Assembly: GCA_937864065.1 (NCBI GenBank)
Contig: CALMIC010000088.1
Coordinates: forward strand, 1-32,089
DNA length: 32,089 nt
Reading direction: 5' to 3'
Origin: an uncultured Cellvibrionales bacterium
GTDB taxonomy: Bacteria > Pseudomonadota > Gammaproteobacteria > Pseudomonadales > UBA7239
The position numbers were made by a program, and so were the translations under genes. The notes beneath the pieces were generated by a model, which was given only the letters and a program-made list of their open reading frames with translations, was not told the origin of the DNA and searched no databases. Of the stretch, positions 7,118-23,478 are shown piece after piece (positions within the stretch are counted from its first letter, which is position 1; each line of letters starts with the position of its first letter).

Positions 7118-8302
7118 GTGAAGAATCCCTGGCGCAAGCTGCCGGCGGGCATCTGGGCACTCGGGATCGGCTCACTCTGCATGGATACCTCCTCGGAGCT
7201 GATCCACAGCCTGCTGCCGCTGTTTATGGTGAGCGTGCTCGGCAGTTCGATGCTGACGGTCGGCATCGTCGAAGGCATCGCAGAGGCGACCGCCGCCATC
7301 ACGAAAGTTTTCTCCGGCGCCTGGAGTGACCGGCTCGGCCGCCGCAAGGGGCTGATGATCGCCGGTTATGCGCTCGCAGCCTTCACCAAGCCACTGTTCC
7401 CGCTCGCCCAGTCGGTGACATGGGTCCTGGCCGCGCGATTTACAGACCGCATTGGCAAAGGTATCCGCGGTGCGCCGCGCGATGCACTGGTGGCCGATAT
7501 CACGCCGGCCAGCGCCCGTGGTGCCGCCTATGGCCTGCGACAGGCGCTGGATTCGGTCGGCGCGCTGCTCGGCCCGGCGCTGGCGATGCTGCTGATGCTC
7601 TGGCTGGCCAACGACATGCGCGCCGCGATGTGGCTGGCGGTTATCCCGGCATTTCTCGCCGTGCTGGTACTCACGCTCGGCGTACAGGAACCCGACCGGC
7701 CGGTGGCAGCAGCTGTGAGTGACAGCGCACGCACACTGGCAGGCGTGCAACGCCTGCCGCTGCACTTCTGGTTCGTGGTGTTGCTGGGCGCCGTGTTCAC
7801 GCTCGCGCGTTTCAGCGAGGCTTTCCTGTTGTTGCGCGCGCAGGCCGTTGGCATGGCCAACGCCCAGGTGCCGCTGGTGATGATCGTGATGAACCTCTGT
7901 TACGCGGCTGTCGCCTACCCGGCCGGTGCCGCTGCCGACCGCCAGCCACCTGCCCGGCTACTGCTCGCCGGCCTGTTGCTGCTCGTGCTGGCGGATGCCG
8001 TGCTGGCGCTGGCGACCGATGCGCTGGCCGTACTGGCCGGGGCGGCATTGTGGGGCTTGCACATGGCGTTCACCCAGGGCTTGTTGGCCAAGCTGGTCGC
8101 CGACCATGTGCCCGCAGGCCTGCGCGGCACCGGCTTCGGCATTTTCAACCTCGCCACCGGGGTGGCCTTGCTGCTGGCGAGCGTGTTGGCCGGCGCGCTG
8201 TGGCAGGCCTATGGCCCGCAAGCGACCTTTGCTGCCGGCGCCTTGTTCGCGATCATCGCGACGCCCGGTTTGCTGGTGTACAGTCGGAAACCTCGCCGCT
8301 AG
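7118..8302 (+). CDS. MFS transporter
   Basis: A 394-residue major facilitator superfamily protein, probably with 12 membrane helices. The loop between helices 2 and 3 carries the family A-motif ([12 protein letters not shown], about 68-79), and helix 4-5 has [15 protein letters not shown]. It would be a proton-driven antiporter in the inner membrane; the substrate cannot be read. The start is GTG. The gene ends only 16 bases before the chimeric ligase/E1-beta gene and likely heads that operon, which suggests export of the operon's product, although it could equally be co-transcribed with the genes before it. Confidence 0.9.
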
Positions 8303-8318
8303 CCGACAGGAACACACC

Positions 8319-9644
8319 ATGGACCATGCCATCATCCGCAAGCCGGCCGATGACAGCACCTGCAACCTGCCGCACGATGGCGATCGTGTTGCCCTGCGCT
8401 TTATCGGCCGCGACTGGCCCAAGAGCAGCAGCGCAGTGCAGGACATCAGCTACGCCCAACTCGCGCAGCAGTCCTGCCGCTTCGCCAATGCATTGCACGC
8501 GCTCGGCGTGCAACAGGGCGACGTGGTGTTTGCGCTGGCGCCGCGCATCCCGCCGCTCTACACCGTCGTGCTCGGCAGCCTGCGCGCCGGCTGCGTGTTC
8601 TCGCCGCTGTTTTCCGCCTTCGGCCCGGAGCCCATCATCGCTCGCATGACGAAAGGCGTCGGCAAGGTGTTGTTCACGCTCGCGTCGTACTACCGGAAGA
8701 AAGTGGCGCCGGTGCGCGACCAGCTGCCGGCGTTGCAACACATTATCCTCATCGACGATGACGGTTCGCTGCAGGCGCTGCTCGGCAATACGCCCGGCGC
8801 GCTCGATTTCCACGCGCTGATGGCCGGCGCGAGCGACGCGCCGTTGTCCGAGCTCGGTTTCACCGGCATCGTTGTCGGCGCGGCACTCGGCGGCTTGCGC
8901 CCGGTTGTCGAGATCATGACCGTCAATTTCGCGTTCCTCGCACTGGACCAGATCATCAATTCTGCGGCGGTGATGCACCACATGAGCGGCGGCCAGTTCA
9001 GCGTGCCGCTGGTGATCCGCATGACCACCGGTGGCGGCCGCCAGCTCGCCGCGCAACACTCGAACGCGTTTGAAGGCTGGTATGCCCATATCCCCGGCAT
9101 AAAAATCCTCGTGCCCGGCACGGTGGAAGACGCGCGCCACATGCTGGCACCAGCGCTGGCCGACCCCGACCCGGTGCTGATTTTCGAGCACGCATTGCTG
9201 CTGAACCGCGAAGAGGAATGCCGCGATCACATCGCGGATTTCAACCCGTGGTGCGCACAAGTGCGCCGCGCCGGCACACAACTCACACTGTTGAGTTACG
9301 GCGGCATGCTGGTGAAGGCGATGGCGGCGGCGGAACAGCTCGCGCAACAGGGCATCGACATCGAGGTCGTGGATCTGCGCTGCCTGCGCCCGCTCGATGA
9401 CGCCACCATCATCGCCTCGGTGGCCAGGACGCATCGTGTGCTGGTGGTCGATGAAGGCTGGAAAACCGGCAGCCTGTCGGCCGAATTGTGCGCGCGCATC
9501 GTCGAGCAGGCCTTCTACGAACTCGATGCACCGGTGCAGCGCCTCTGCCGCGCGGAAGTGCCGATGCCTTACGCCAAGCCACTGGAAGAGGCCGCGCTCC
9601 CGCAAGTGGCCGATATCGTGGCGAAAGTACAGGAGATGCTGTGA
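8319..9644 (+). CDS. Chimera: N-terminus of an acyl-CoA ligase joined in frame to truncated 2-oxoacid dehydrogenase E1-beta
   Basis: One open frame of 441 residues with two unrelated parts. Residues 1 to about 173 match the beginning of an acetyl-CoA-synthetase-like AMP-forming ligase ([44 protein letters not shown]). The P-loop TSGTTG-type motif and all later ligase motifs are absent. From about 174 ([10 protein letters not shown]) to the end it matches the beta subunit of E1 (thiamine-diphosphate-dependent), with [38 protein letters not shown] and the closing [10 protein letters not shown]. About 55 N-terminal residues of E1-beta are missing. The glutamate in the SE pair (E178) corresponds to the catalytic glutamate of E1-beta (E89 of the human precursor). 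No E1-alpha gene is in the window. The ribosome site AGGAA is good, and the stop overlaps the E2 start. Confidence 0.85.
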
Positions 9645-10705
9645 TGAAATATGCCGTGACGATGCCATCACTCGGCGCCGACATGGACGAAGGCAAGCTG
9701 CTCGAATGGCACATCCGCCCGGGTGACGTGATCAGCAAGGGCCAGCTGATTGCTGCGGTGGAAACCCAGAAAGCCGCTGTCGATATCGAGAGTTTCCGCG
9801 CCGGCACCGTGCTGGAACTGGTCGGGAACATTGATGACGTGATCCGCGTCGGCAGCACGATTGCCTGGCTGGACGTAGCGGACGACGACGTTGCCGCACC
9901 CGCTGCAGGACAGGCCGCTCCCGCTGCAGCCGCCGCACCTGCACCAGTGGTTGCCAGCGCCGCGACCCATGCGCCGCTACCCGGCCACCATCGCCAGCGC
10001 GTGTCGCCGGCCAGCGAGAAGAAAGCGGCCTCGCTGATCAACGTGCGCGAGGCCATTGCCCGCGCCATGGCGCGCTCGAAACGCGAGATCCCGCACTACT
10101 ACCTGCAGTCGCAATTCCACATCGACAAGCTGGTCGCCTGGCTCGACGCGAAAAACCGTTCGTTGCCGCCGGAAGAGCGCCTGTTCATGCCGGCCGTGCT
10201 GATGCGCGCGGTCGTGCTGGCGCTGCAATCCAACCCGGCAATGAACGGCTATTACGAGAACGGCGCATTTGTGCGCAAGGATGCCATCCACCTCGGCATC
10301 ACCGTCGGCCTGAAACCGGATGGTGTGATGACACCGGCCATCCTCGACGCCCACACGCTGTCGCTCGCGCAACTGAATGCCGCGTTCAGCGACCTCGTGC
10401 AGCGGGCACGCGCTGGCAAGCTGCGCAACCGCGAGATGACCGATGGCACTGTCACCGTCACCAATGTCGGCGAGCTCGGCGCCGATGCGGTCACCGGTGT
10501 GATTTTCCCGCCGCAAGTTGCGCTGGTCGGTTTCGGTCGCGTGCGCAAGGCACCGATCGTCGATGCCGACGGCGGCGTGCGCGGAGGCTATGTGCTGGAC
10601 ACTACGCTCGCGGCTGACCACCGCGTGAGCGACGGGCTCGCCGGCTCGCGCCTGCTGAGTATGATCGAACGGCTGCTGGCGCAGCCGGACAAACTGGAGA
10701 ACTGA
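9644..10705 (+). CDS. 2-oxoacid dehydrogenase E2 (lipoyl acyltransferase), lacking an evident E3-binding domain
   Basis: A 353-residue E2. The lipoyl domain (1-78) has lipoylation lysine 43 in ETQKA. An Ala/Pro linker follows (about 83-112), then the catalytic acyltransferase domain (about 118-353) with NVGELGAD near 274-281 and the active-site block DHRVSDG (H326, D330). In typical E2 proteins a 35-residue peripheral subunit-binding domain sits between linker and core; here only RQRVSPASEKKAAS occupies that place, so docking of E1/E3 in the usual way is doubtful. It should transfer an acyl group from lipoyl-lysine to CoA or another thiol. AGGAG precedes the start, which overlaps the previous stop. 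Confidence 0.93.
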   Translation: MKYAVTMPSLGADMDEGKLLEWHIRPGDVISKGQLIAAVETQKAAVDIESFRAGTVLELVGNIDDVIRVGSTIAWLDVADDDVAAPAAGQAAPAAAAAPAPVVASAATHAPLPGHHRQRVSPASEKKAASLINVREAIARAMARSKREIPHYYLQSQFHIDKLVAWLDAKNRSLPPEERLFMPAVLMRAVVLALQSNPAMNGYYENGAFVRKDAIHLGITVGLKPDGVMTPAILDAHTLSLAQLNAAFSDLVQRARAGKLRNREMTDGTVTVTNVGELGADAVTGVIFPPQVALVGFGRVRKAPIVDADGGVRGGYVLDTTLAADHRVSDGLAGSRLLSMIERLLAQPDKLEN

Positions 10706-10707
10706 CC

Positions 10708-10953
10708 ATGGAGCGCAATGCCGTCAAGGCCGCCATCAAGAACATCTTCCACCACGTCGCGCCCGACATCGAGTTCGACGCGCTGGACCTGTCACGCCCG
10801 CTGCGCGACCAGGTCGAAATGGATTCGCTGGATTTCTACAATGTGCTGGTCGCGATCCACAAGCAGCTCGGCGTCAACGTGCCGGATTCGGTGCTGCTGG
10901 AACTGAACAACCTCGACGGTCTGGTCGACTACGTCGCTGCGAATGCCCGCTGA
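10708..10953 (+). CDS. Stand-alone acyl carrier protein
   Basis: An 81-residue carrier protein of the ACP/PCP fold. The phosphopantetheine attachment serine is S40 in EMDSLDFYNV, the usual D-S-L motif at the start of helix 2. Helices before and after are well formed (LRDQVEMDSLDF, LDGLVDYVAANA). It begins two bases after E2 and overlaps the glycosyltransferase start, so it belongs to this operon and not to fatty-acid synthesis (no fab genes nearby). It is a likely acceptor for the acyl group made by the E1/E2 part or by the lost ligase. That link is inference. Confidence 0.9.
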   Translation: MERNAVKAAIKNIFHHVAPDIEFDALDLSRPLRDQVEMDSLDFYNVLVAIHKQLGVNVPDSVLLELNNLDGLVDYVAANAR

Positions 10954-12226
10954 GCTGGCTGGCGCCCGCGTCCTCGTCATCGGCTGCGTGTGGCCCGAGC
11001 CGCGCTCGTCGGCGGCCGGTTCGCACATGTTACAGCTGCTCGATGTGCTGTTGCGCGCCGGCTGCAGCATCACTTTCGCCTGCGCCGCCCAGCCGGGCGA
11101 CACGCGCGCCGACCTCACGGCCCTCGGCATCACCGAAACCGCGATCGCGCTGAACTGCAGCAGCTTTGATACTGTCGTACGTGAACTTGATCCGGCCATC
11201 GTCGTGTTTGACCGCTTCATGACCGAGGAGCAGTACGGCTGGCGCGTGGCGCAAGCCTGCCCGCAGGCACTCCGTGTGCTGGAAACGTCTGACCTGCACT
11301 GCCTGCGCGAAGCGCGCCACACCTTGCTGAAGCAGGCACTGGCACGCGGCGAGACTGGCGTGCCACAGCCCAGTGATGACGCGCTGTTTCTCGCGATGGC
11401 GCAACACGAGGTCGCACTGCGGGAAATTGCCGCGATCCTGCGCAGTGATTTGTCGCTGATGATTTCACCGGCGGAGATCGAGCTGCTGCAACAGCGCTTT
11501 GCCGTGCCCCCCACGCAACTCGTTTACTGCCCGTTCCTGCTTGATGCGCCGGATGCTGCCCAATGGCAACCTTTCACTGAACGCGAGCATGTCGTCACCA
11601 TCGGCAATTTCCTGCACGCGCCGAACCGCGACGCGGTGCAATGGCTGCGCGAGGCCATCTGGCCGCTAGTGCGCGCGCAACTGCCGCAAGCCGAGTTGCA
11701 CATCTACGGCGCCTACGCGCCGCAGCAGGTGCGCGAATGGCACCGCGAGCGCAACGGCTTTCTCATCAAGGGCTGGGCGGACGATGCGCTGGCTGTCATG
11801 GCACAGGCCCGCCTTTGCCTTGCCCCGCTGCGCTTCGGCGCCGGCCAGAAAGGCAAGCTGGTTGATGCGATGCTCACCGGCACGCCGAGCGTCACCACGT
11901 CGGTTGGCGCGGAGGGCATGCACGGCACACTGCCCTGGCCCGGCGCTGTTGCCGACCATGCCGCCGCCTTTGCGCAAGCCACCGTGCAACTGTATCGCGA
12001 TGCCGCAAGCTGGCAGCGCGCGCAACAGCAGTGCTTGCCGGTACTGCAAGCAGGCTTCGACCGACTGGTGCATGGCCGCGCGGTCATTGGTAAAATCTCC
12101 CGCGCTCTCGCCAACGTTGGCGCTCACCGTGCGCCGCATTTCACTGGCCGCATGCTGTTGCATCACCAGCACCGCAGCACGGAATTCATGGGACGCTGGA
12201 TCGAGGCGAAAAACAGGAACCTGTAG
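10943..12226 (+). CDS. Glycosyltransferase (GT4-like, GT-B fold)
   Basis: A 427-residue protein with two Rossmann-like halves. The N-terminal half begins ARVLVIGCVWPEPRSSAAGSH, typical of the GT-B acceptor domain. The C-terminal half holds the nucleotide-sugar site, with TIGNFLHAPNRDAV, LHIYGAY and the GWADDALAVMAQARLCLAPLRFGAGQKGKLVDAM block in which A-P-LRFGAGQKGK-x-x-DAM is the family signature. No membrane segment or signal peptide is seen, so it acts in the cytosol. The start overlaps the ACP gene by 11 bases. Substrates cannot be told. The last 60 residues are basic and His-rich (HRAPHF, LLHHQHRS) and match no feature I know. Confidence 0.87.
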   Translation: MPAELAGARVLVIGCVWPEPRSSAAGSHMLQLLDVLLRAGCSITFACAAQPGDTRADLTALGITETAIALNCSSFDTVVRELDPAIVVFDRFMTEEQYGWRVAQACPQALRVLETSDLHCLREARHTLLKQALARGETGVPQPSDDALFLAMAQHEVALREIAAILRSDLSLMISPAEIELLQQRFAVPPTQLVYCPFLLDAPDAAQWQPFTEREHVVTIGNFLHAPNRDAVQWLREAIWPLVRAQLPQAELHIYGAYAPQQVREWHRERNGFLIKGWADDALAVMAQARLCLAPLRFGAGQKGKLVDAMLTGTPSVTTSVGAEGMHGTLPWPGAVADHAAAFAQATVQLYRDAASWQRAQQQCLPVLQAGFDRLVHGRAVIGKISRALANVGAHRAPHFTGRMLLHHQHRSTEFMGRWIEAKNRNL

Positions 12227-12246: not shown

Positions 12247-13782
12247 ATGAAAATTACCTTACTGAACCCGCCCCACACGGCCATTGGTAGCCGCATACCC
12301 GGTGAACACCTGCCACCATTGGGCCTGCTGTCGATCGGTGGACCGCTGCTTGATGATGGCCACGCAGTCCAGTTGCTTGACGCCGACCTGCACGACCTCC
12401 GTATCCCTGCCATCATCGCGGCGATTGCAGCAGACCTGCCGCAGGTGGTGATGATCGGTCACTCCGGCTCCAGCGCCGCGCACGACACTGTGCTGGCGAT
12501 CTGCCGCGCGCTCAAGGCACTCGATGCCCGCATCACCATCGTTTACGGCGGCGTACATCCCACCTATCACTGGGATTCGATCCTGCGCGATTGCGCCGAC
12601 ATCGACGTGATTGTGCGCGGCGAAGGTGAACGCACCACGCCATTGCTGGTGCGTGCGCTCGAAGCCGGGATCCCGCTCGCCGGTGTGCGCGGCATTGCCT
12701 ATCGCGAGCACGGCATGGTGCTCCACACCGCAGCTGCCGAGGTCATCGAGGATCTCGACCAGTTCCGCGTCGGCTGGGAGCTGATCAACCATGCGGACTA
12801 TTCCTACTGGGGCGGCAAGCGCGCTGTCGTCGTGCAGTTCTCGCGCGGCTGCCCTTACCTGTGCAACTACTGCGGCCAGCGCGGTTTCTGGACGCGCTGG
12901 CGGCACCGCGACCCGGTGCGTTTTGCGCGGGAACTGGCGCGCCTGCACCGCGAGCACGGCGTGGAGTTGATCAATTTTGCCGATGAATTGCCCACCGGTT
13001 CGCGCAAGGCCTGGCGCAGCTTCCTTGAGGCACTGATCCGCGAGAACGTGCCGCTGGTTCTTGTCGGCTCCACGCGCGCCGGCGATATCGTGCGCGACAA
13101 GGACATCCTGCACATCTACAAACAGGCTGGCGTAATCCGCTTCCTGCTCGGCATCGAAACCTACAGCGAAGAGACCATGGCCGAGATCCGCAAGGGTGGC
13201 AGTGTGTCGGAAGACCGCGAGGCGATCCGCCTGCTGCGCGAGCACGGCATCCTGTCGATGGCGACTTATGTCATCGGTTTCCAGGAAGAGCGCGATGCCG
13301 ATTACTGGCGCTCCTACCGTCACCTGCTTTCCTATGACCCGGACCAGGTGCAACTGCTCTACGCCACGCCGCACCAGTGGACGCCGTTCTATGCCACTGT
13401 CGAGCAGCGGCGCGTGACCCAGCTGGACCGCAAGAAGTGGGACTACAAGCACCAGGTGCTGGAAGCCGCCGGTGTGCCGGCCTGGCGCGTGTTCCTCTGG
13501 TTCAAGACCATCGAGGTGCTGATGCAGGCCAGGCCACGTGTGTTATGGCGCACGCTGTTCCACCGCGATGCCGGCTACCGCCATGCGATGCGCTGGTACA
13601 CGCGCATGGGCCGCAAGGTGTGGCTGCACGAGGTGGCCGAATTCCTGTTCCACACCCGGCTGGAAAAGCACGGGCCTCGGTTGGCGGATTTCGCCGGCGG
13701 CGGCATGGCCGAACGCGAGTACTCAATGGTGTCGATCGGCAAGCGCTCAGCGGCGGCAGAACCGGTGCGGCTGGTGGATTGA
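12247..13782 (+). CDS. B12-binding radical SAM enzyme, BchE-like
   Basis: A 511-residue class B-type radical SAM protein. The N-terminal cobalamin-binding-like domain (about 1-150) contains LNPPH, LDADLHDL and VYGGVHPTYHW, and IDVIVRGEGE. The radical SAM core has the cluster motif C202-x3-C206-x2-C209 (CPYLCNYCGQ), followed by RGFWTRWRHRDPV and FADELPTGS, then a C-terminal region with YDPDQVQLLY, KWDYKHQVL and RHAMRWYTRMGRKVW. The blocks resemble BchE-type oxidative cyclases and relatives that methylate or oxidise unactivated carbon. No bacteriochlorophyll gene is present, so a different substrate is likely. GGAG lies about 12 bases upstream of the ATG. It is the last gene of the operon. Confidence 0.88.
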   Translation: MKITLLNPPHTAIGSRIPGEHLPPLGLLSIGGPLLDDGHAVQLLDADLHDLRIPAIIAAIAADLPQVVMIGHSGSSAAHDTVLAICRALKALDARITIVYGGVHPTYHWDSILRDCADIDVIVRGEGERTTPLLVRALEAGIPLAGVRGIAYREHGMVLHTAAAEVIEDLDQFRVGWELINHADYSYWGGKRAVVVQFSRGCPYLCNYCGQRGFWTRWRHRDPVRFARELARLHREHGVELINFADELPTGSRKAWRSFLEALIRENVPLVLVGSTRAGDIVRDKDILHIYKQAGVIRFLLGIETYSEETMAEIRKGGSVSEDREAIRLLREHGILSMATYVIGFQEERDADYWRSYRHLLSYDPDQVQLLYATPHQWTPFYATVEQRRVTQLDRKKWDYKHQVLEAAGVPAWRVFLWFKTIEVLMQARPRVLWRTLFHRDAGYRHAMRWYTRMGRKVWLHEVAEFLFHTRLEKHGPRLADFAGGGMAEREYSMVSIGKRSAAAEPVRLVD

Positions 13783-17308: not shown

Positions 17309-18370
17309 GTGAAAATACTGGTTACAGGCGGCGCCGGTTTCATCGGCTCGGCCGTGGTGCGCCACATCATCGGGAACACGCAGGAGACGGTCATCAATGT
17401 CGACAAGCTGACCTACGCCGGCAACCTCGAGTCGTTGGCCAGTGTGGCCGACTCGCCGCGCTACCATTTCCGCCAGGTCGACATCTGCGACCGCGCCGCC
17501 ATTGACGCCGTGTTCGCCGAGTTCACGCCGGATGCCGTGATGCACCTGGCCGCCGAATCGCACGTCGACCGCTCGATCGACGGCCCGGCCGCCTTCATCG
17601 AGACCAACATCGTCGGCACCTACACGCTGCTGGAAAGCGCGCGCCAGTTCTGGCTCACGCTGCCGGAAGCACGCAAGGCCGCCTTCCGCTTCCACCACAT
17701 TTCCACCGACGAGGTGTACGGCGAACTGGGCCCGACCGGCCTGTTCACCGAACAGACGCCGTATTCGCCGAACTCGCCCTACTCCGCCAGCAAGGCCTCG
17801 TCGGACCACCTGGTGCGCGCCTGGCACGAGACCTACGGCCTGCCGACGCTCGTCACCAACTGCTCGAACAATTACGGCCCGTACCATTTCCCGGAAAAGC
17901 TGATCCCACTGATGATCCTCAACGCGCTGGCCGGCAAGCCGTTGCCGGTGTACGGCAAGGGCGACCAGGTGCGCGACTGGCTGTACGTCGATGACCACGC
18001 ACGCGCGCTGTACACGGTGCTGACGCAAGGTGCCGTGGCCGAAACCTACAACATCGGCGGCCATAACGAGAAACAGAACATCGAGGTGGTGCACACGATC
18101 TGCAACCTGCTGGAAGAACTGCGCCCGCAGAAACCCGCTGGCGTGCAGCAATACCGCGACCTGATCACGCACGTCACCGACCGCCCTGGCCATGACGTGC
18201 GCTATGCGATCGACGCGGGCAAGATCCAGCGCGAGCTCGGCTGGACGCCGCAGGAAACATTCGACAGCGGCATCCGCAAGACAGTGCAGTGGTACCTCGA
18301 CAACGAGAGCTGGTGGCGCCATGTGCTCGACGGCAGCTACCAGATGCAGCGGCTCGGGCTCAAGGCATAA
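17309..18370 (+). CDS. rfbB: dTDP-glucose 4,6-dehydratase
   Basis: A 353-residue extended short-chain dehydrogenase that converts dTDP-glucose to dTDP-4-keto-6-deoxyglucose, step 2 of dTDP-L-rhamnose synthesis. The NAD site is GGAGFIG at 7-13. Catalytic residues seen: T133-D134-E135 (STDEVYG) and Y158-x3-K162 (YSASK). [12 protein letters not shown] and [15 protein letters not shown] are further family blocks. The start is GTG at 17309 with AAAGGG upstream. It is the first gene of a six-gene unit rfbB-rfbA-rfbC-rfbD-OPX-PCP. No convincing promoter was found in the 138-base gap before it. Confidence 0.97.
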
Positions 18371-18397
18371 GACTGTCATAACAAGAGAGACAAGACG

Positions 18398-19276
18398 ATG
18401 AAAGGCATAATCCTCGCCGGTGGTTCCGGCACGCGCCTGCACCCGGTGACACTGGCGATCTCCAAGCAGCTACTGCCGGTGTATGACAAGCCGATGATCT
18501 ACTACCCGCTCACCACGCTGATGCTCGCCGGCATCCGCGAGATCCTGATCATCTCCACCCCGAAAGACACGCCGCGCTTCGAGGAACTGCTCGGCGACGG
18601 CAGCCAGTGGGGCATCTCGCTGCAATACGCCGTGCAGCCGAGCCCGGATGGCCTCGCGCAGGCTTTCATCATCGGCAAGGAGTTCATCGGCGGCGATTCC
18701 TGTGCGCTGGTGCTCGGCGACAACCTGTTCTTCGGCGAGCATTTCTCGCAGGGCCTCGGCCAGGCGGCCGCACGCAGCGAACAGGGCGGCGCCACGGTGT
18801 TTGCCTACCAGGTGAAAGACCCGCAGCGTTTCGGCGTGGTGGAATTCGACGCCAATGGCAAGGCGATCAGCCTGGAGGAAAAACCCGCCCGGCCGAAATC
18901 GCGCTTTGCCGTCACCGGTTTGTATTTCTATGACAACAAGGTCGTGCAGTACGCCGAGTCGATCAAGCCGTCGGCGCGCGGCGAGCTGGAGATCACCGAC
19001 GTCAACAACCTCTACCTGCAAAGCGGTTCGCTGCGCGTCGAGATCATGGGCCGCGGCACCGCCTGGCTCGACACCGGCACGCACGATTCGCTGATGGAAG
19101 CCTCGCAGTTCGTGCAGACCATCGAGCACCGCCAGGGCATGAAGATGGCGAGCCCCGAGGAAGTGGCGTGGCGCCAGCGCTGGATTGATGACAAGCAGCT
19201 GCGCGCACTGGCCGAGCCGCTGAAGAAAAGCGGTTACGGCGAATACCTCATCGACCTGCTGGAGTTCGGTGCATGA
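18398..19276 (+). CDS. rfbA: Glucose-1-phosphate thymidylyltransferase
   Basis: A 292-residue nucleotidyltransferase that makes dTDP-glucose from dTTP and glucose-1-phosphate, step 1 of the rhamnose pathway and its feedback-controlled step. Seen: [13 protein letters not shown] (6-18) for nucleotide binding, [17 protein letters not shown], the [12 protein letters not shown] metal site near 107-118, and [15 protein letters not shown] near 224-238. Length is standard. GAGAGA lies upstream, and the stop overlaps the rfbC start. Confidence 0.97.
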
Positions 19277-19887
19277 TGAAAGTCACTGAAACCGTGCTGC
19301 CGGGCGTGCTCATCATCGAGCCCAAAGTGTTCGGCGACAGCCGCGGTTTTTTCCAGGAAACCTTCCGTGCCGACGCCTACCGCAACCTCGGCATCCCCGA
19401 TTTCGTGCAGGACAACCACTCGCGCTCGGTGAAAGGTGTGCTGCGCGGCATGCATTCACAGCGTTTGCGGCCGCAGGGCAAGCTGGTGCGCGTGTCGCGC
19501 GGTGCGGTGCTTGATGTCGCCGTCGACATCAACCCGGCCTCACCGACTTTCGGCCGCCATGTCGCTGTTGAACTGAATGACGAGAACCATCGCCAGTTCT
19601 ACATCCCGCCGGGTTATGCCCACGGTTTCTGCGTGCTGTCAGACACAGCGGATTTCCTCTACAAGTGCACCGAGTACTACCAGCCCGGCGACGAGATCGG
19701 CGTACTGTGGAATGACCCGGACATCGCCATTAACTGGCCGATTGCGCAGCCGCAGCTGTCGGACAAGGACCGCGCGCTGCCGAGCCTGCAGGCGCTGGCC
19801 GTGCAACTGCGTGAGCAGCCCGCCACGTTCTACACGCCCGGCGAGCGGCTACAGGTGCAGGCGGAACAGCAGCAGGAATCGCTGTGA
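19273..19887 (+). CDS. rfbC: dTDP-4-dehydrorhamnose 3,5-epimerase
   Basis: A 204-residue cupin-fold epimerase, step 3 of dTDP-L-rhamnose synthesis. Catalytic histidine 61 lies in LRGMHSQ (usually LRGLHYQ; the Tyr is replaced by Ser), with IPPGYAHGF at 111-119, Y130 and Y136 (FLYKCTEYY) and the [11 protein letters not shown] block at 146-156. The loop after the histidine is about one residue short of the usual pattern. The tail is about 20 residues longer than typical (183), with QAEQQQES at its end. The function call is firm. Confidence 0.94.
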
Positions 19888-20759
19888 GCCTGCGCCTGCT
19901 GGTCACCGGCGGCGAGGGCCAGCTCGGCCGCGAATTCGCCGACCTGGCAGTGGACGCCGTGCGCTGCGGCCACGCTGAACTGGACATCACTGACCCGGCC
20001 AGCATCCGCGCCGCACTCGTGCGCTACCAGCCACACGCCATCATCAACGCCGCCGCCTACACGGCCGTGGACCGCGCCGAGAGCGAGCGCGAGGCCGCTT
20101 TTGCCATCAATGCCACCGGCCCCGGCCTGCTGGCGCAGGCGGCTGCGGCGGCAGGCATCCCGCTGCTGCATGTCTCCACCGATTACGTCTTTGCCGGTGA
20201 CAAGCCGGTAGGCGAAGCCTGGTGCGAAACCGATGCCTGCGCACCGCGCTCCGTCTACGGCCAGAGCAAGCTGGCCGGGGAACAGGCCGCGCTGGCCGCC
20301 TGCCCGCGCGCCTTTGTGCTGCGCACCAGCTGGGTGTTCGGCCGCTACGGCAACAATTTCGCCAAGACCATGCTGCGGCTGGCCGCCGAGCGCGACGAGC
20401 TGCGCGTGGTGGGCGACCAGCACGGCTGCCCGACCCATGCCGGCGATATCGCCGCCACCCTCGTGCGGGCAGCCGAGGCACTGGTGGCCGGCACGCTGGC
20501 GCCGGGCATCTACCACTACGCCGGTGCGCCGGCCTGCACCTGGCACGGGTTTGCCACCGCCGTCATCGAGCAGGGCCACGCGCGCGGCCTGCTGGCGCGG
20601 CTGCCGCTGGTGCACCCGATTGCCACCCACGAGTACCCGGTCGCCGCCCCGCGGCCGGCCAACTCGGTGCTGGACTGCAGCAAACTGCAGCTTGCCCTCG
20701 GCATCCCCAGCGCCGACTGGCACAACGGGCTGAACAAACTGCTGGATTACCTGTCGTAA
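19884..20759 (+). CDS. rfbD: dTDP-4-dehydrorhamnose reductase
   Basis: A 291-residue reductase, last step of dTDP-L-rhamnose synthesis, using NAD(P)H. It has the nucleotide-binding VTGGEGQLGREF at 7-18, the STDYVFAG block at 98-105, the catalytic Y125-x3-K129 (YGQSK) and VGDQHGCPT for substrate binding. The start is GTG overlapping the rfbC stop (GTGA). The order rfbB-A-C-D is complete, so the cell can make activated rhamnose from this unit alone. Confidence 0.96.
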   Translation: MSLRLLVTGGEGQLGREFADLAVDAVRCGHAELDITDPASIRAALVRYQPHAIINAAAYTAVDRAESEREAAFAINATGPGLLAQAAAAAGIPLLHVSTDYVFAGDKPVGEAWCETDACAPRSVYGQSKLAGEQAALAACPRAFVLRTSWVFGRYGNNFAKTMLRLAAERDELRVVGDQHGCPTHAGDIAATLVRAAEALVAGTLAPGIYHYAGAPACTWHGFATAVIEQGHARGLLARLPLVHPIATHEYPVAAPRPANSVLDCSKLQLALGIPSADWHNGLNKLLDYLS

Positions 20760-20803
20760 AGGAACGGTGCGGCATCCTTGCCCGCGCCGCCCGAGGATTG
20801 TCG

Positions 20804-21355
20804 ATGTCACACCTGCTTGCCCGCCTGCTGTCCTGCTGCGCCGCCCTGCTGCTGGCGCTGGGCGCCGTGGCCGGCGAGGGCGACGGCGATGCCGTGTCGG
20901 GCTACCAGCTCGGTGCCGGCGACCGGATCCAGGTCTATGTGTTCGACGAGCCGGAACTGAGCCTCGAGTACACGCTGAGCGATGCCGGCACGATTTCCTA
21001 CCCCTTCCTCGGCGAGATCCGCGTGAAAGGGCTGACCATCGGCCAGCTGGAGGAACGCATCACACGCGGGCTGAAAGGCCCCTACCTCGTCGACCCGCGC
21101 GTCAACGTCACCATCCGCGAGTACCGCCAGTTCTTCATCCTCGGCGAGGTCAACACCAGTGGCGGCTACGCCTTCCGCCCCGGCCTCACGCTGCGCAAGG
21201 CGATCAGTGTCGCCGGCGGGCTGTCTGCCGATGCGTCCGAGAAAAAGATCTTCGTGATCCGCGAGACCGATCCGGCACGGGCAAAGCAGCCGATCGGGAT
21301 GGATGATCCCGTCTACGCCGGCGACACCGTGATGGTCGAGAAGGGTTTCTTCTGA
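20804..21355 (+). CDS. Polysaccharide export outer-membrane protein (short OPX, GumB/Wza type)
   Basis: A 183-residue protein with a Sec signal peptide (1-23, SCCAALLLALGAVA). The polysaccharide export domain follows, with YQLGAGDRIQVYVFDEPELSLEYTLSDAGTISYPFLGEIRVKGLT, and an SLBB domain with FFILGEVNTSGGYAFRPGLTLRKAISVAGG. There is no lipobox cysteine at the cleavage site, and no C-terminal barrel helix as in Wza (379 residues), so it is of the short OPX class, nearer to GumB. It would form the periplasmic part of an export channel. GAGGA precedes the ATG; the stop overlaps the next start. Confidence 0.9.
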   Translation: MSHLLARLLSCCAALLLALGAVAGEGDGDAVSGYQLGAGDRIQVYVFDEPELSLEYTLSDAGTISYPFLGEIRVKGLTIGQLEERITRGLKGPYLVDPRVNVTIREYRQFFILGEVNTSGGYAFRPGLTLRKAISVAGGLSADASEKKIFVIRETDPARAKQPIGMDDPVYAGDTVMVEKGFF

Positions 21356-23478
21356 TGGACGCGCGGCCGGACAACGACGACATCGTCATCAACCTGCGCG
21401 CGTGGTGGGCGTTGCTGCGCCGCCGTCGCCGGCGCGTGGCCGCGATCGCCACAACGCTGTTTGCGCTGGCGCTGCCACCGGTGCTGCTGTGGCCCGCCAC
21501 CTACCGCGCCGAATCCACCATCCTCGTCGAGTCACGCAACGCGAAAGTCGTGTCCATAGAGGAAGTCTATGACATCAACGCGCAGCAGTCGGAGTATTTC
21601 CAGACGCAATACGAAGTGCTCAAATCGCGCGAACTGGCGGAAAAAGTCATTGCCGAACTTGGCCTCGAACAACTGCCGGCGTTCAACCCGGCGCTCCGGC
21701 GCAACGACTGGCTGCCGTGGCAGCGCAAGGCACTGACCAAGGCGGAGATCCACCAGGCCGCGTTGCAGGTGTTCGCTGACAGCCTGGAAGTGAAACCGCT
21801 GCGCAACACGCAGCTGGTGACGATCAGCTTCAGCGCGCGCGACCCGCAACTGGCCGCCGACATCCTCAACACGCTCGGCAAGCTGTACATCGAGAGCGAC
21901 CTGCAGGCGCGCCTCGACGTGACGCGCGAGGCAGCGAGCTGGATCAACAGCCGCCTTGCCGGCTTGCGCCAGCAGCTGGAGCAATCGGAGAAGGCGCTGC
22001 AGGATTACCGCGAGCGCGAGAACCTGCTGGAAGTGGAAGGGGTGCGCACACTGGCGACCCAGGAGCTGAACGAGCTGACCACCAAGCTGGTGGAAGCGCG
22101 CCGCAAGCGCACAGAAGCGGAAAATATCGTCGCGCAGATCGGCGAGGACACCACCAGCAACCCGGCCGTGCTGCAGCACCCGCTGGTGCAGCGCCTGCGC
22201 GAACAGGAAGCCGCAGCCGAGCAGAAGCTGTCGGAGCTGGCGAAACGCTACGGCCCACAGCACCCGAAGATCATTGCCGTCAACAGCGAGCTGGATGCCG
22301 CGCGCGCCAGTTACAACCAGCAGGTCGCCAAGGTCATCGAGGGTGTGCGCCGCGAATACGAAATCGCCCGCGCCACCGAAGAGGCACTGAATCGCGCGCT
22401 CGACAGCAAGAAAAGCGAGATGCAGGACATCAACCGCAAGGAATACAAGCTGAGCGAACTCGAACGCACCGTCACCGTCAACCGCGAGTTGTATGACACC
22501 TTCTTCAGTCGCATGAAGGAAACCAGCGAAACGGAAAACCTGCAGACCGCACACGCGCGCATCATCGACCACGCCATCGCGCCGACCGAACCCGACTCGC
22601 CAGCCCGCACCTGGTGGCTGCTGGCCGCTGCATTGCTCGGCCTCAGTGCCGGCGTGGCCACGGTGCTGTGGCAAGCACACATCGACAACACACTCGACGA
22701 CCCGGATGACGTGCAGCAGGGGCTCGGTGAAATACTGCTCGGCATCGTGCCGCTGCTGCCGCAGCGCGACAGCGTGGCGTCACTGTACGGCCGCGACAGC
22801 AGCAGCGCGTTTGCCGAGGCGATACGCACCGTGCGCACGGCCCTGCTGGTCGGCTTGCGCCAGGCACACTGCGCACAGCAGGTATTGCTGGTGACATCGG
22901 CGATGCCGGGCGAAGGCAAGTCGGTGCTGGCCAGCAACCTCGCGGCGGCTTTCGGCCAGATGGGCAAGACACTGCTGATTGATGCCGACCTGCGCCGTCC
23001 GGCGGCTGCGCGCCAGTTTGCTGTGCCCACGACGGTGCCAGGTCTCTCTGCACTTCTCTCCGGACAGGCGCCGCTGCCGGCCTGCATCCACCACGATGCG
23101 GTGCGCGGTTTCGACATCCTGCCCGCCGGCCTGTTGCCGGCCCAGCCACTGGAGCTGCTGTCATCGCCGGTGCTGGCACAACAGCTGCTGCGGCTGCGCG
23201 AGCAGTACGAGCACATCGTCATCGATTCGGCACCGTGTGAGGCGGTCAGCGATGCACTGGTGTTGTCAGTGCTGGTGGATGGCGTGGTGCATGTCGTGCA
23301 TGCCGGTGTCACCGACCGGCGTGCGATTACCTCGGCCATCCAGCGCCTGCGCGCCGCCGGGGCGCGCTTGCTCGGTGTGGTGCTGAACCAGGTGGATATC
23401 GAGCGCGGCCAGCGCGCCGGTTATTACTACGGCGGTTACTACCCCAGCACACGCGACGACGACCGCCGCGCCGCCTGA
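21355..23478 (+). CDS. Polysaccharide co-polymerase with bacterial tyrosine kinase domain (Wzc-like)
   Basis: A 707-residue inner-membrane protein. N-terminal Wzz domain with a first membrane segment (about 27-47), a long periplasmic coiled coil (about 190-400), a second membrane segment at about 418-436 (TWWLLAAALLGLSAGVATVLW), then a cytosolic kinase domain with Walker A AMPGEGKS (K about 522), Walker A' LLIDADLRRP (about 540) and Walker B HIVIDSAP (about 621). The C-terminal tyrosine cluster GYYYGGYYP is the autophosphorylation site. It sets polymer length and gates export together with the OPX protein. It is the last gene of the unit. Confidence 0.95.
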   Translation: MDARPDNDDIVINLRAWWALLRRRRRRVAAIATTLFALALPPVLLWPATYRAESTILVESRNAKVVSIEEVYDINAQQSEYFQTQYEVLKSRELAEKVIAELGLEQLPAFNPALRRNDWLPWQRKALTKAEIHQAALQVFADSLEVKPLRNTQLVTISFSARDPQLAADILNTLGKLYIESDLQARLDVTREAASWINSRLAGLRQQLEQSEKALQDYRERENLLEVEGVRTLATQELNELTTKLVEARRKRTEAENIVAQIGEDTTSNPAVLQHPLVQRLREQEAAAEQKLSELAKRYGPQHPKIIAVNSELDAARASYNQQVAKVIEGVRREYEIARATEEALNRALDSKKSEMQDINRKEYKLSELERTVTVNRELYDTFFSRMKETSETENLQTAHARIIDHAIAPTEPDSPARTWWLLAAALLGLSAGVATVLWQAHIDNTLDDPDDVQQGLGEILLGIVPLLPQRDSVASLYGRDSSSAFAEAIRTVRTALLVGLRQAHCAQQVLLVTSAMPGEGKSVLASNLAAAFGQMGKTLLIDADLRRPAAARQFAVPTTVPGLSALLSGQAPLPACIHHDAVRGFDILPAGLLPAQPLELLSSPVLAQQLLRLREQYEHIVIDSAPCEAVSDALVLSVLVDGVVHVVHAGVTDRRAITSAIQRLRAAGARLLGVVLNQVDIERGQRAGYYYGGYYPSTRDDDRRAA

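Follow-up and report, generated by a model that had tools for sequence, protein, structure and literature searches.

An in-frame acyl-CoA ligase/E1-beta chimera, probably left by one deletion in a ligase-E1-E2-carrier protein operon

An operon of five genes, coding for an AcsA-like ligase, E1-alpha, E1-beta, E2 and an acyl carrier protein (ACP), is found with the same order and spacing in many phyla. Annotated plasmid records give this order as acsA, pdhA, E1-beta, E2 and acyl carrier protein, and in the nearest loci that were read out the genes follow each other as ligase, E1-alpha, E1-beta, E2 and ACP with small overlaps. Nine loci from the same order of bacteria as the present organism likewise carry the ligase, E1-alpha and E1-beta as separate genes. 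No published study of the five-gene operon was found in the literature searched. In two Bdellovibrionales loci (L005, 9216-11615, and L006, 8985-11444) a PEP-synthase-like protein (PPDK_N, PEP-utilizers) is encoded directly after the ACP gene, a neighbour that may indicate a link between the intact operon and pyruvate.

This arrangement of five separate genes is absent in the window, by which we mean the whole stretch of 32,089 nucleotides that was analysed. Here the ligase and E1-beta ends form one frame, and about 2.3 kb including E1-alpha is gone. The following features of the region were used in this work.

7118-8302, forward strand: MFS transporter, the first gene upstream of the fusion (Pfam MFS_1, 2.8e-42)
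8319-8834, forward strand: N-terminal 172 residues of an AcsA-like AMP-forming acyl-CoA ligase, ending before the P-loop and without the NIAYEAVDRH-type N-terminal motif
8832-8843, forward strand: junction, AGC GAC GCG CCG, codons S172-D173-A174-P175, placed by homologue alignments on either side
8835-9644, forward strand: E1-beta from about residue 54-55 to the C-terminus, including the TPP-binding glutamate E178 and Transketolase_C
9644-10705, forward strand: E2 with lipoyl and acyltransferase domains and a remnant of the E3/E1-binding domain (profile matches and alignments)
10708-10953, forward strand: acyl carrier protein (Pfam PP-binding, 2.8e-10)
10943-12226, forward strand: glycosyltransferase (Glyco_trans_1_4, 6.9e-22), sharing 11 bp with the ACP gene
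12247-13782, forward strand: BchE-like B12-binding radical SAM protein (TIGR02026, 500 bits against a cut-off of 481), starting 20 bp after the glycosyltransferase

The frame at 8319-9644 on the forward strand is open and stop-free, and its translation has 441 amino acids. Pfam AMP-binding was matched at fusion residues 22-153, i.e. positions 10-136 of the 384 in the profile or the first third of the domain, and the NCBIfam acetate-CoA ligase model PRK04319 at residues 21-173. The match to the NCBIfam E1-beta model PRK09212 begins at fusion residue 173, which is model residue 55 of 327; Pfam places Transket_pyr at 138-295 and Transketolase_C at 313-433. The Transket_pyr domain is incomplete, with homology from residue 54-55 of normal subunits onward. 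In an alignment with human PDH E1-beta (3exe_B), D173 of the fusion falls opposite chain residue 54, and E178 opposite residue 59. We take residue 59 to be the TPP-binding Glu59 that contacts the aminopyrimidine ring of TPP, and this glutamate is retained in the fusion. In 66 homologues the ligase P-loop (FTSGTTG; pattern [ST]SGTTGxPKG) lies 14-15 residues past the junction column, and it is lost in the fusion. The ligase C-terminal domain PF13193, which L018 has, gave no match in the fusion protein.

The sequence-only reading of this DNA had proposed about 173 ligase residues joined to E1-beta, a ligase half without the P-loop and all that lies beyond it, a kept catalytic glutamate of E1-beta (E178), and an intact frame with a ribosome site upstream and an overlap downstream. 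That description is correct in all main points: the ligase part amounts to about 172 residues, E1-beta follows from about residue 54-55, and the E2 start overlaps the stop codon of the fusion (TGATG). The junction had been put at 8835-8847, which is near, and its best placement is 8832-8843. On the ligase side it reads HALMAGASD(A), to be compared with HALMAQASDEF in L008 and TLMEAASDAF in L037, and on the E1-beta side (R)DAPLSE, where homologues show the pattern (R)D[AT]PLSE. Neither parent sequence survives; the join may have been guided by a short direct repeat, some 6-9 nt long, around GACGCG (the Asp-Ala codons), which both genes would have carried in the same frame. Such a shared in-frame repeat would make the kept frame unsurprising and could explain where the junction lies.

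Among 84,980 species genomes scanned, 80 related loci were found, 68 of which hold both the ligase N-terminal part and the E1-beta part. The ancestral operon of ligase, E1-alpha, E1-beta, E2 and ACP that had been postulated thus exists in relatives, with the same order and spacing, and a search of these relatives for separate genes, also suggested earlier, found the two halves apart in every one of the 68 loci. The distance between the breakpoints is 2182-2572 bp with a median of 2310. One internal deletion, as proposed before, remains the simplest history, while its size is revised from about 2.5 kb to 2.18-2.57 kb (median 2.31 kb). Furthermore, the tree of the ligase part and the tree of the E1-beta part both place the window with L018 (Halobacteriovorax) and the Bdellovibrionales loci L005, L006 and L007 (support 0.995 and 0.999). 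Since both halves cluster with the same operon lineage, the fusion points to an internal deletion in one operon and not to a join of unrelated genes.

We consider it fairly probable that the frame arose when a laterally spread ligase/E1-alpha/E1-beta/E2/ACP operon lost about 2.3 kb by a single internal deletion. Gone with it would be the part of the ligase from just before the P-loop onward, the whole of E1-alpha and some 54 residues at the start of E1-beta. Either enzyme activity in the fusion product is very unlikely, judging by the domains that are left. The ligase is predicted to be inactive because it has no P-loop, no hinge and no C-terminal domain, and the decarboxylase because E1-alpha, the holder of the TPP diphosphate, and part of the E1-beta pocket are gone. 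The kept frame most likely matters only for translation, as it would let ribosomes through to the overlapping genes for E2, ACP and the glycosyltransferase; these are possibly still in use.

The host genome is a draft assembly of 323 contigs and 2.57 Mb, 91% complete and 7.3% contaminated, and a draft of this kind gives some weight to an artefact of assembly or consensus. In that case the operon is complete in the organism, and the 2.3 kb were dropped from the contig (C88) by way of mixed strains or chimeric reads. We regard this as a serious alternative, though a less than even one. It would fit the finding that neither half is less conserved than its counterparts in intact operons, and that the fusion occurs in no other genome among those searched. 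However, the likely shared repeat of 6-9 nt is far below the usual assembler k-mer, and the lost piece was not found elsewhere in the assembly. E1-alpha, already reported as missing from the operon, has no copy on the other contigs either, about 9% of the genome being missing: the sole PF00676 match, on contig C52, was rejected as the lost gene as it is Dxs. A ligase C-terminus on contig C269 was rejected in the same way, with an identity of 39-42%. In the lost region no other host ligase exceeds 42% identity, whereas orthologues there are some 60-75% alike. These ligases are thus too dissimilar and the only PF00676 match is Dxs, so the lost piece is not on another contig of the assembly.

Additionally, a contig of a same-genus genome has the stretch from argininosuccinate lyase to TrmO (0.9-6.3 kb) in the same gene order, at 64-88% identity, and this means that the contig belongs to this organism. 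The genes in this left part are full length against the same-genus genome, which also speaks against a faulty assembly. Just past TrmO, the same-genus contig diverges from the window. No orthologous E1-beta was found in the three closest genomes, and the operon looks acquired; its occurrence elsewhere on a conjugative plasmid fits acquisition.

The fusion frame carries no frameshift or stop. All 20 near-invariant sites of the ligase core (residues 21-168) are kept, and in relative-rate and branch tests of this core the window is not raised above its nearest relatives. The E1-beta part has 4 of 105 sites changed, which is below L005 and L006 and in the range of intact relatives. A core without decay means that the deletion is very recent, or that it is an artefact, or that the fusion has been kept by selection. 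The ligase N-terminus (8319-8387) is different, being about 10 residues short and without the segment N-[ILMV]-[ACG]-x-x-[AV]-[LVI] that is present in 68 of 68 homologues; the segment was sought in the other reading frames and found in none. This is another lesion of the gene, missed by the sequence-only reading, and a second, independent change argues against an assembly artefact.

The third possibility, raised in outline, like the assembly artefact, by the sequence-only reading, is a real new protein: the N-domain of the ligase would stand in for what E1 has lost and cooperate with E2 and ACP, e.g. as a binding or scaffold subunit. The intact frame, start region and E2 overlap, the well conserved ligase core, and an E2 that retains its lipoyl lysine and the catalytic HRVSDG motif are in line with it, yet the ligase fragment stops inside a domain and is without its ATP-binding motifs, both active sites are incomplete, and E1-alpha is absent from the assembly. 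Homologues with the same fusion point, whose existence had been proposed as a check, did not turn up. A match spanning the junction was found neither in the 68 loci holding both halves nor, among the matches listed outside the window, in samples of 392 same-order and 399 same-phylum genomes. In the plasmid collection 0 of 896 matching records cover 80% of the fusion query, and the junction 39-mer had no match in viral contigs. We therefore hold a new protein to be very improbable. That the chimera is kept as a non-catalytic subunit, in which a ligase N-domain is attached to half an E1-beta that docks to the E2-ACP pair, seems slightly more doubtful still. Roughly speaking, real DNA is judged somewhat likelier than an assembly fault, and a selected new function accounts for very little of the weight given to real DNA.

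In E2, the E3/E1-binding (peripheral subunit-binding) domain, found in 36 of 41 related E2s, is cut to the remnant RVSPASEKKA. This loss was considered as a sign of decay and rejected: L004-L007 have no such domain in that stretch and their E1 is intact. Being common to relatives with an intact E1, the loss is a lineage feature of a Bdellovibrionales-like clade. No MFS homologue of the upstream kind was found in the 80 related loci, and in the relatives read such a gene does not belong to the E1 operon. The glycosyltransferase is probably on the same transcript as the ACP gene. The BchE-like protein is probably not involved in bacteriochlorophyll synthesis, because the host genome has no Photo_RC match. 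Further downstream, 17309-23478 holds dTDP-rhamnose, polysaccharide export and chain-length genes, i.e. an exopolysaccharide cluster.

Taken together, the observation is confirmed, the deletion history is supported and the meaning is ordinary. A clean-looking multidomain gene can arise from one deletion, or from an assembly fault, where the genes of an operon lie close together, and annotators should not read this fusion as a new enzyme. The more useful lead is the intact operon of AcsA-like ligase, E1, E2 and carrier protein, which is spread over many phyla and plasmids and is apparently little studied in the literature searched.

Compared with the known systems, the genes and their order in the window are those of Burkholderia savannae pMSMB0266 (WS78_RS34095-34115), of the Bdellovibrionales loci L005 and L006 and of Halobacteriovorax L018. 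The E1-beta part of the fusion is about 59-71% identical to that acsA-pdhA-E1-beta-E2-ACP operon and the ligase part mostly 42-61%, whereas about 2.3 kb, covering the C-terminal two thirds of the ligase, E1-alpha and the N-terminus of E1-beta, are missing and the remainder is one frame. Against AMP-forming acetate-CoA ligase (PRK04319, PF00501), residues 22-153 correspond to the first third of the domain, but the P-loop, the hinge, the C-terminal domain and the N-terminal NI..AVDRH motif are absent. Against pyruvate dehydrogenase E1-beta (3exe_B, PRK09212), the alignment covers residues 173-439 of the fusion and 54-325 of the reference, Glu59 and the C-terminal domain among them; the first 54 or so residues, part of the TPP pocket included, and the E1-alpha partner are missing.
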